A DNA stretch of 64,000 nt from Thermodesulfovibrionales bacterium (GTDB lineage Bacteria > Nitrospirota > Thermodesulfovibrionia > Thermodesulfovibrionales > Dissulfurispiraceae), in assembly GCA_020062545.1 (NCBI GenBank), contig JAGUWD010000007.1, positions 248,001-312,000 on the forward strand, in the 5' to 3' direction. Under the pieces are notes generated by a model, which saw only the letters and a program-made list of their open reading frames with translations, was not told where the DNA came from and ran no database searches. This document shows positions 59,478 through 62,295 of this stretch, piece by piece. Both the position numbers and the translations under genes were made by a program. Position 1 is the first letter of the stretch; each line of letters opens with the position of its first letter.

Positions 59478-60707
59478 ATTTTCAGGGCAATTGCTTCCGG
59501 CTTCTTACTTTTCCTTGTGATTCTTGCAGCATATTTCTATTTTAAAGGACCTGCAGAAAACCACGGGATTGTCCAGATTCCTGCTGGTCAGGTCACTGAA
59601 CCTTCCGAGCAGTCAGCATCCCTTAATCATGGCAGCGATTCGACGAAGACAGTAGATGAGTCCATTAAGTCAATCGAGATATCGCCTTTACAGGAAAGCG
59701 ATGTAAAGATTGATGAGAGGAACAGGGAATTGTGGCTTAAAGCAGAAGCAATGGCAAAGGCAGGAGACAATGACAGTGCCATTAAACTGCTCAGGGAAAT
59801 CTCCGAAAGAGACAACCGTGCTTTTACCGGCATCGGTATCTTGTCTATGAAGACCGGAAAATACGATGATGCAATAAAATACCTCGAAAAGGCCATAGAG
59901 TACGACGGTAATAATTTCACTGCAATAAGAGTTCTTGCCCTTGCTTATTACAAAACTGACCGCCTTGATAAGAGCCTCCATAATATTGAAAAAGGCCTTT
60001 CCATTAAAGAGGATCAGACGCTGCAGTTCCTCCGTGATAAGATTGGTAGAGAACACCGGACGCAGCAAAAATTTATCGATGAAAGTACCCGGCACTTCAA
60101 GGTTATTTTCGATGGGCACGAAAACGGCAATATCAGCAGGAAGGTATTGGGAATTCTTGATGACGCATACAGGTTTGTCGGTAAGGAGCTTAATTATTTC
60201 CCTGATCAGCCCATAACTGTGATTATCTATACTGAAAAGGAATTCTTTGATACCACGCTGGCCCCTGGATGGGCCGGCGGTGCATATGATCTTATAGGAG
60301 GGAAGATCCGCATCCCGGTAAAGGGAGTGGAGGGCAAAGAGGCCGAACTGAAAAGGGTGCTATTTCACGAATATGTGCATGCCATGGTTGATTCCATTAC
60401 ACATCGTTGTCCCCTCTGGATTAATGAGGGTCTTGCTGAATATTTTTCGAGGAATTATCCAAAGAGAATCGGTCAGGTTGTTCCTCTGAATTATCTTGAG
60501 AACTCATTTGTATGGCTCGGAGGAAGAGTGGGCATTGCTTACTGGGAGAGCCACTCAGCAGTGTCGTATCTCATAGAGAGGTATGGTGCTTCAAGGATGA
60601 AGGATTTGCTGATATCTCTCTCAAAGGGGGCGGATATGAATCAGGCATTCAAGGAAACGTTTAGCATTTCATATAATGAATTTATTTCGTCATGGGGGAA
60701 GGGCTGA
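59478..60707 (+). CDS. anchored TPR protein with peptidase MA-like domain, apparent ATT start
   Basis: About 409 residues. The N-terminal helix FRAIASGFLLFLVILAAYFYF anchors it in the membrane; TPR-like repeats follow (about 75-165, AMAKAGDNDSAIKLLREI and GKYDDAIKYLEKAIEYDG), then a gluzincin-type domain with HEYVHAMVDSI and downstream NEGLAEYFS supplying HExxH and the third ligand Glu. GGGAGGTGA is seven bases before ATT 59478; no ATG, GTG or TTG exists in frame before GTG 59517, which would cut the helix in half. Likely a periplasm-facing metallopeptidase. Confidence 0.85.
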   Translation: MFRAIASGFLLFLVILAAYFYFKGPAENHGIVQIPAGQVTEPSEQSASLNHGSDSTKTVDESIKSIEISPLQESDVKIDERNRELWLKAEAMAKAGDNDSAIKLLREISERDNRAFTGIGILSMKTGKYDDAIKYLEKAIEYDGNNFTAIRVLALAYYKTDRLDKSLHNIEKGLSIKEDQTLQFLRDKIGREHRTQQKFIDESTRHFKVIFDGHENGNISRKVLGILDDAYRFVGKELNYFPDQPITVIIYTEKEFFDTTLAPGWAGGAYDLIGGKIRIPVKGVEGKEAELKRVLFHEYVHAMVDSITHRCPLWINEGLAEYFSRNYPKRIGQVVPLNYLENSFVWLGGRVGIAYWESHSAVSYLIERYGASRMKDLLISLSKGADMNQAFKETFSISYNEFISSWGKG

Positions 60708-60710
60708 GCC

Positions 60711-60738
60711 TTGACATAAGTTTCTTGTTTCCGATAAT
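60711..60738 (+). promoter_or_regulatory. promoter of the riboswitch-htpX transcript
   Basis: TTGACA (60711-60716) and GATAAT (60733-60738), 16-bp spacing. Transcription would begin a few bases before the riboswitch P1 stem. Confidence 0.75.
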
Positions 60739-60748
60739 CTAAAAATTA

Positions 60749-60846
60749 GTAAAGGGGAGTAGCTGAAACAGTGCATATCGTCAGCACGTCTGCTTTATGC
60801 AGGCCGGTAGCACTGGTTAGGAAAAACTAACAGGCAAGACCTTTAC
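60749..60846 (+). ncRNA. yybP-ykoY manganese riboswitch
   Basis: The diagnostic GTAAAGGGGAGTAGC segment (60749-60763) and the closing AGGCAAGACCTTTAC (60832-60846) are present, with the internal TCGTCAGCACG and GCCGGTAGCA loops expected of the yybP-ykoY aptamer. P1 is formed by GTAAAGG (60749-60755) and CCTTTAC (60840-60846). The aptamer binds Mn2+. Here it lies directly behind a promoter and in front of htpX. Family assignment is from recognised consensus, not from a covariance search. Confidence 0.85.
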
Positions 60847-60908
60847 CGCAATGAGTATTTATTGGTAAACTGTTATTAATAAGTATTTGTTGCGGTAAAG
60901 GTCTTTTT
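60838..60908 (+). terminator. riboswitch-controlled intrinsic terminator
   Basis: GACCTTTACCGCAA (60838-60851) pairs perfectly over 14 bp with TTGCGGTAAAGGTC (60890-60903) and is followed by TTTTT. The left strand includes the 3' side of aptamer P1, so P1 and the terminator exclude each other: Mn2+ binding should favour P1 and allow readthrough into htpX. Confidence 0.92.
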
Positions 60909-60925
60909 AATTGGAGGTGTAAAAG

Positions 60926-61774
60926 ATGAATGGATTAAAGACAATGGTTTTAATGGTTACATTGACCTTAATGCTTGTGGCAATAGGAGGCCTTCTGGGC
61001 GGCAAGTCAGGGATGACATTTGCTTTAATCATGGCCTTTGGAATGAACTTTATTACATACTTGTTCAGCGATAAGATAGTGCTGAAGATGTATGGTGCAA
61101 AGCCGGTAACAGAGGCAGAGGCTCCAGAGCTTTACGGCATTGTAAGAAGGCTTGCCCACAGAGCGGAGCTTCCGATGCCGAAGGTATATATAATGGATGA
61201 AGACCAGCCCAATGCATTTGCAACAGGAAGGAATCCAAATCATGGCGTGGTTGCCGTTACAACAGGCATAATGAGAATCCTTTCGAGGGAAGAGCTTGAA
61301 GGCGTCATAGCCCATGAACTTGCCCATATAAAACACAGGGATATACTTGTAGGCACAGTTGCTGCAACAATCGCAGGAGCTATAAGCTATCTTGCTCAGA
61401 TGGCACAGTGGGCAATGATATTTGGAGGAAGGCATGACGATGAAGAAGGAGGCAGCAATCCCATAGCAGCTATAGTAATGATGATTGTTGGCCCCATAGC
61501 TGCAATGATGGTGCAGATGGCAATATCCCGCTCAAGGGAGTACGGTGCAGATACTGGCGGTGCAAGGATCGCGGGCAATCCGATGCATCTCGCAAATGCC
61601 CTTAAAAAACTTCACATGGCTTCCCAGAGGATACCAATGGATGCAAACCCTGCAACATCCCACATGTTTATAGTGAACCCTCTTTCAGGCGGAGGACTTT
61701 TGAAGCTTTTCAGCACACATCCGCCAATAGAAGAGAGGATAGCAAGGCTTGAGGCCATGAGAATGGGAAGTTAA
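60926..61774 (+). CDS. htpX: membrane zinc metalloprotease HtpX
   Basis: A 282-residue inner-membrane protease that removes misfolded membrane proteins. Two N-terminal helices, then the active site [10 protein letters not shown] (about 130) between them and two further helices, and the third zinc ligand in [17 protein letters not shown] (about 201). TTGGAGGTG precedes ATG. Directly downstream of the Mn riboswitch and terminator, so it should be induced by manganese. Control of htpX by this riboswitch class is not something I know from the literature. Confidence 0.95.
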
Positions 61775-61797: not shown

Positions 61798-62295
61798 ATG
61801 ATGAATAAGCCGATGGTTTTGATACTTATGGGAAGCGACAGTGACCTTGAAGTTATGGAAAAGGCAGCGGGGGTCCTAAAGGAGATGGGTGTCCCTTATG
61901 AGATGGACATAAGCTCCGCTCACAGGCTTCCTGAAAAGACAGCCGAATACGCAAAGAATGCCAGGGAACGAGGCATTGAGGTGATAATAGCAGGTGCAGG
62001 AATGGCAGCCCATCTTGCAGGGGTGATTGCATCACATACGACACTGCCTGTTATCGGCGTGCCTCTTAAATCAGGAGCATTGAATGGCATTGATGCATTA
62101 TATTCGACAGTGCAAATGCCTCCGGGAATACCTGTGGCAACGGTCGCAATTGATGGTGCTAAAAACGCCGCATATCTTGCATGCTCCATCCTTTCTATAA
62201 AACATCCTGAAATAGCCGACAGGTTGGAGGCTTTCAGGGAAAAGACAAGAAAGTCGTTGCTGGAGAAATCGAAGGAGCTAAAGAAGTCTCTATAA
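61798..62295 (+). CDS. purE: N5-carboxyaminoimidazole ribonucleotide mutase
   Basis: A 165-residue class I PurE converting N5-CAIR to CAIR in purine synthesis. [15 protein letters not shown] (about 11), [10 protein letters not shown] (catalytic His) and [16 protein letters not shown] are intact. Length is normal. The short gap after htpX carries a GGAGTAATGGAG-type word repeat that may serve as the ribosome site; ATG 61798 or 61801. Possibly cotranscribed with htpX. Confidence 0.96.

Follow-up and report, generated by a model that had tools for sequence, protein, structure and literature searches.

A predicted Mn2+ riboswitch of the yybP-ykoY class upstream of the membrane protease gene htpX in Nitrospirota and Desulfobacterota

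The htpX leader and its P1/terminator switch

The DNA analysed here is a stretch of 64,000 nt from a Thermodesulfovibrionales bacterium (contig JAGUWD010000007.1, positions 248,001 to 312,000), and this whole stretch is called the window. In the window, the gap between the stop codon of a gluzincin/TPR gene (59517-60707) and the gene htpX (60926-61774, forward strand) is filled by a complete regulatory leader. A promoter, an aptamer of the yybP-ykoY (Mn2+) type, an intrinsic terminator and a Shine-Dalgarno sequence follow one another in it, all of them on the forward strand. The product of htpX is a zinc metalloprotease (M48) of 282 residues. Its score against the NCBIfam equivalog NF002826 was 415 bits at a cut-off of 369, it belongs to PF01435, and its HELAH motif agrees with HEXXH. 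The gene placed behind the leader in a preliminary description of this DNA is thus htpX as named there. The leader is most probably a Mn2+-responsive transcriptional ON riboswitch that operates through the competition between the P1 helix and the terminator, and we put the probability of this reading at roughly 0.87.

The promoter (60711-60738) is of the sigma-70 type, with a -35 box TTGACA (60711-60716), a spacer of 16 nt and a -10 box GATAAT (60733-60738). It matches in 11 of 12 positions, which for a single region taken by itself is within chance. The homologous leaders add to this, since a promoter with at least 9 of 12 matches lies in the 60 nt 5' of the aptamer in 65 of 91 of them against 8% of shuffles. 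The promoter that had been read earlier is therefore conserved in its position. The aptamer (60748-60846, 99 nt) was delimited by a covariance model, covariation and homology to the Escherichia coli alx leader, and it has no separate P2 hairpin. Its P1 switch helix is formed by GTAAAGG (60749-60755) and CCTTTAC (60840-60846). Enclosed by P1 are the 5' side of L1 with GGAGUA and the GC of P1.2 (60756-60763; invariant in 40/40 aligned aptamers), the P3 arm (60769-60815) with L3 (UCAGCAC, 60781-60787), the P4 hairpin GUUAG...CUAAC (60816-60831), and the 3' sides of P1.2 and L1 with GCAAGA (60834-60839). The terminator (60836-60908) is composed of a stem (60836-60868 / 60873-60905) with a 4-nt loop and a T-run (60904-60908). 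A terminator with a T tract had been described before, and both were found. However, the length of 14 bp given for the stem did not hold, as a stem of 33 bp is predicted, with an energy of -40.7 kcal/mol and TTTTT after it. The Shine-Dalgarno sequence GGAGG (60913-60917) was read from the sequence.

The 3' strand of P1, CCTTTAC, is also part of the 5' arm of the terminator stem, and P1 and the full terminator are mutually exclusive. This overlap had already been pointed out, and it was borne out by folding and is conserved at relatives. Minimum free energy (MFE) folding of the growing transcript indicated that P1 is present from 60846 and is lost only past approximately 60898, about 52 nt beyond the aptamer. 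In folds constrained to keep P1, 22 bp at the top of the terminator hairpin could still form, with no T-run after them. The fold energies are -56.7 kcal/mol with P1 versus -70.1 kcal/mol with the full terminator. A terminator sharing the 3' strand of P1 was found at 79 of the 91 homologous sites, comprising 29 of the 32 sites in front of htpX and 50 others. Its 3' arm covaries with P1 (62 A-T, 7 G-C, 2 G-T and 0 A-C; Fisher p 3e-8), and the relatedness of the genomes behind these three-strand counts limits the independence of the counts. The terminator hairpin occurs once in this genome, and a mobile inverted repeat was ruled out by this uniqueness. The microRNA families of Rfam that matched the hairpin were generic long-hairpin matches below thresholds.

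Class membership of the aptamer

The window RNA has the yybP-ykoY core, with GGGGAGUAGC in L1, CGUCA..ACG and CCGG around L3, and GCAAGACC. The class motifs, GGGGAGUAG...GCRAGACC for L1 and CGUCA...ACG / CCGG for L3 including the invariant adenosine, are all present. A core pattern, GGGGAGTAGC..CGTCA..CCGG, was run on 296 genomes of the phylum Nitrospirota with the reversed pattern as a control. Matches were obtained in 37 of the 296 genomes, and the reversed pattern gave few. Forty aptamers were aligned, a hand-drawn structure of 28 pairs was tested on them, and the covariance model R1 was built from them. Every core motif is invariant in 40/40 sequences, including the letters of L1 and L3 and the Mn2+-contacting adenosine. 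In this alignment 93.5% of the cells pair, compared with 27-43% in slid controls. Changes on both sides of a pair were seen in 15 pairs and 107 cells (11.5 and 38 in shuffles), and the covariation score was 0.319 versus 0.178 in shuffles.

R1 gave 102.4 bits (E 2.6e-31) for the window aptamer, which was itself among the 40 sequences used for training. Outside the training set, R1 found the aptamers of E. coli alx (45.3 bits, E 6.7e-13) and mntP (21.5 bits, E 6e-5). Both alx and mntP are recognised as Mn2+-responsive members of the class, and the two matches establish homology in sequence and structure to members that have been tested experimentally. The yybP-ykoY aptamer that the preliminary description had read is thus upheld by the R1 score, covariation above shuffles and the homology to alx. 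The alx leader is matched by R1, has a similar L3 (CGUCAUUACG against CGUCAGCACG) and aligns without a P2 hairpin, whereas the gene behind it is that of a TerC-family Mn2+ exporter.

With the class as a whole (RF00080; structures 4Y1I from Lactococcus lactis and 6N2V from Xanthomonas oryzae), the window copy shares the L1/L3 core motifs, the invariant adenosine, the P1 switch helix and an expression platform overlapping P1. By motif position rather than by structure, A60783 appears to be the counterpart of the adenosine that contacts Mn2+ in the solved structures, A41 in L. lactis and A48 in X. oryzae (PMC6754395). On the other hand, the window copy scores below the RF00080 threshold, has no separate P2 hairpin and leads a membrane protease gene instead of a transporter gene. 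The P2 hairpin with its four-way junction, absent from the window copy, is a variable feature and does not define the class. It is lacking in most Nitrospirota copies and present in Geobacterales copies. A three-way-junction form of the class has been reported, according to a review (PMC9495176). The same review describes the Streptococcus mgtA Mn2+ riboswitch, which has the three-way junction and a P-type ATPase target as at many sister sites in the phylum of the window copy, and differs in having no htpX (PMC9495176). Within a class already known, the window RNA is an ordinary member without P2, similar to the alx aptamer and to the reported three-way form.

The preliminary description had let its assignment depend on a search with RF00080. 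This search gave no match to the window, neither at the gathering score nor at E up to 1, and no match elsewhere in the window's own genome. The same model missed 18/18 related leaders from other lineages, and of the 5 control genomes that it matches, only 2 reached its own cut-off. Therefore, the fault was assigned to the weakness of RF00080 and not to a missing structural feature. In the 296 phylum genomes RF00080 gave 3 weak matches, and their alignments show the same core; relatives were scored at 22-31 bits with the core correctly aligned. The model (Rfam 15) has 177 positions including a long U-rich downstream sequence, and this part probably explains the failure. At its own threshold, the current RF00080 model overlooks an entire branch of the class, and annotation pipelines that rely on it would be blind to the regulon.

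Recurrence of the riboswitch-htpX pair

A search with R1 in 396 genomes of the phylum found 91 sites in 73 genomes. At 32 of these sites htpX is the first gene, in 31 genomes with at least 6 family codes. With about one htpX per roughly 2500 genes, the number of such pairs expected by chance would be well under one. Most of the other sites lead genes for P-type ATPases, TerC and UPF0016, and the remainder lead those for a zinc-ribbon protein, a beta-carbonic anhydrase, an SPFH protein and others. P-type ATPases, TerC and UPF0016 are families linked to the export or homeostasis of Mn2+ (PMC13274385), and the sister copies thus precede genes of Mn2+ homeostasis. When 40 HtpX loci outside this set were scanned with R1, 39 gave no match and one had an aptamer 2.2 kb upstream of htpX; riboswitches overlooked in front of unlinked HtpX genes were dismissed on this basis. 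At one of the 32 htpX sites (locus L048, G260:C33) the riboswitch is intact, and what is left of htpX spans 74 codons and runs on into a gene for carbonic anhydrase. A second HtpX in the genome of L048 is not preceded by a riboswitch.

A further scan of 84,980 species was keyed to the start of htpX and only AGACC of the RNA. It matched 106 stretches, and 70 of the 80 retrieved have the aptamer core directly upstream of htpX, as confirmed by R1. These loci include Geomonas, Geotalea, Citrifermentans, Geomesophilobacter and Desulfomicrobium, and some belong to cultured Geobacterales. The loci L165, L210 and L220 (L220 being Malonomonas rubra) end at contig or stretch edges and were uninformative in that scan; an R1 site lies in front of htpX in Malonomonas. 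In nine genomes from the scan, R1 found 20 sites, with htpX as the first gene at 13 of them and terC at four others. The order riboswitch-htpX-terC was seen at three of the 13 sites. It is found in Geobacter sp. OR-1, with 3 nt between the two genes, and likewise in Geomonas azotofigens and Citrifermentans bremense. The survey of other genomes that had been suggested earlier therefore yielded riboswitch-htpX pairs in dozens of genomes, spread over at least two phyla, Nitrospirota and Desulfobacterota.

In a tree of HtpX proteins, the riboswitch label is strongly clustered and 13 changes are needed to explain it, of which well-supported branches alone force at least five. Therefore, the pairing is probably ancient, with a history of repeated gain or loss. 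No earlier report of it was found in the literature searched, a scope that did not extend to supplements and RegPrecise tables, so that an earlier listing of htpX in a predicted yybP-ykoY regulon is possible. The new part is the conserved link of a Mn2+ riboswitch to a membrane protease; the RNA class was already known.

Proposed mechanism, alternatives and function

RNA polymerase would start at the promoter and transcribe the aptamer. At high cytosolic Mn2+, the ion would bind between L1 and L3, dock the two arms and hold P1. The lower stem of the terminator would then be blocked, only its upper part would form, and in the absence of a T-run after it the polymerase would read through into htpX. 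At low Mn2+, the 3' arm of the terminator would displace P1 and transcription would stop before htpX. Both Mn2+ as the ligand and the ON direction are taken from analogy with the class. From the conserved anatomy and the ON-type terminator switches already tested in this class, Mn2+ is predicted to raise the expression of htpX. Likewise, since the class activates at high Mn2+ and the sister sites lead families of Mn2+ export and homeostasis, htpX should be induced by Mn2+.

Several points weigh against this reading. A riboswitch-htpX pair with binding, termination or expression data was not found in the literature searched. HtpX is present in 325 of the 396 phylum genomes and the pair in about 31; most HtpX genes of the phylum thus lie outside this control, which is not universal. 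In the htpX leader of one relative (L253 / L218, G116) the promoter and terminator are kept and the aptamer is gone. The empty RF00080 search and the partial dependence of the three-strand counts belong here as well. Finally, according to Breaker and colleagues, divalent ions other than Mn2+ may be the ligands of some yybP variants (PMC7266159).

This last point leads to the best of the alternatives, in which the aptamer is a variant of the class retuned to another divalent ion (Ca2+, Mg2+, Fe2+ or Co2+/Ni2+), with htpX responding to that ion. According to the review, Ca2+ is also bound by the Streptococcus mgtA aptamer of the yybP-ykoY family (PMC9495176), and the P-type ATPases downstream of the riboswitch are nearest to calcium-type models. 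However, the core letters of L1 and L3, including the adenosine that contacts Mn2+, do not vary in the 40 aptamers and align with those of alx. The same subfamily also precedes the UPF0016, TerC and P-type ATPase genes tied to Mn2+ (PMC13274385). We consider a change of ion to be unlikely.

It is clearly less probable still that the attenuator in this leader has decayed or is constitutive and no longer switches in this organism. The aptamer loss in the close relative would fit such a decay, as would the unusually long 33-bp stem, whose lower part wins by 13 kcal/mol in MFE folding. However, every core letter and helix is intact in the window, P1 forms before the terminator can, and same-genus copies keep both P1 and the terminator. 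As a separate observation, locus L209 likewise has a promoter and terminator with the aptamer gone. The losses at L253/L218 and L209 would leave htpX behind an unregulated terminator, and they are either natural deletions or assembly artefacts.

The least probable alternative holds that htpX is incidental and that the real target of the riboswitch is a gene further downstream, for example purE, or an operon that htpX entered: the htpX-purE pair does recur in the same family, but the genes behind htpX differ by family (purE, zinc-ribbon protein, UPF0016, carbonic anhydrase, P-type ATPase, PurC, TerC) while riboswitch and htpX stay constant, and the pairing occurs in separate HtpX clades with the label changes described above. 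In the window, purE (61798-62295, forward strand; aminoimidazole ribonucleotide carboxylase) starts 23 nt past htpX and is probably co-transcribed with it, and purE follows htpX at only part of the riboswitch-htpX loci.

If htpX is induced by Mn2+ as we propose, the purpose would probably be the disposal of membrane proteins that are damaged, mis-metalated or unwanted, such as importers, under Mn2+ excess and alongside TerC and exporters. Our best guess for the targets of HtpX is importers or mis-metalated membrane or exported proteins. The link of Mn2+ excess to envelope stress suggested in the preliminary description is a reasonable possibility. It gains support from the riboswitch-htpX-terC operons, from the co-purification of HtpX with TerC proteins and from the protection against Mn2+ by membrane proteases in Bacillus subtilis. 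HtpX and FtsH are listed among the membrane proteins co-purifying with the B. subtilis TerC proteins MeeF and MeeY (PMC10550928). A connection of TerC and HtpX is thus common to both cases, with terC and htpX sharing riboswitch operons here; the link is physical in B. subtilis (PMC10550928) and regulatory here. The TerC-HtpX contact thereby gains a regulatory counterpart. In the same organism, degradation of MgtE by YqgP-FtsH guards against excess Mn2+ (PMC7231995). Membrane proteolysis as a protection is shared with our proposal, whereas the control there is exerted by metal binding to the protease and not by a riboswitch (PMC7231995), the proteases are others, and this genome has no MgtE. 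MgtE was therefore ruled out as a substrate of HtpX by analogy with YqgP. The genome has one Nramp importer, which stays a candidate substrate.

Exporter and TerC genes are known to have Mn2+ riboswitches. The protease pairing across Nitrospirota and Desulfobacterota, sometimes within a terC operon, suggests that Mn2+ excess is met by membrane-protein turnover besides export. Tentatively, and with somewhat less than even odds, HtpX may be a dedicated part of the Mn2+-excess response together with TerC in Thermodesulfovibrionia and Geobacterales, induced by the Mn2+ riboswitch and removing importers or mis-metalated membrane or exported proteins, which would place membrane proteolysis in the core Mn2+ regulon. 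The physiological triggers of HtpX are poorly defined, and a Mn2+ riboswitch offers a specific, testable inducer.

Some further genes were seen behind riboswitches of this kind. A second one in the window's own genome lies 3 kb past the window end (L034:7523-7616; C3:315022-315115) and leads genes for a beta-carbonic anhydrase, a UPF0114 protein, a zinc-ribbon protein, a P-type ATPase and PurC. In relatives, too, carbonic anhydrase genes follow a Mn2+ riboswitch. An SPFH/Band_7 protein, weakly similar to HflK/HflC, is encoded behind the riboswitch at loci L110 (G244; directly), L066 and L047. Proteins of the HflK/HflC type are partners of the membrane protease FtsH, and the SPFH protein is a second hint that the Mn2+ regulon includes membrane proteolysis. 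A membrane protein of approximately 894 residues, which resembles the NCBIfam 'hypothetical protein' PRK00068 (UPF0182-like), is frequently encoded by the first gene or one of the first genes after the riboswitch (L050, L117, L136, L102 and L128) and is possibly an unrecognised Mn2+-related membrane protein. In two Geobacterales genomes (L302 and L305), the riboswitch leads a small DNA-binding-like protein whose tail looks ribbon-helix-helix-like by eye.
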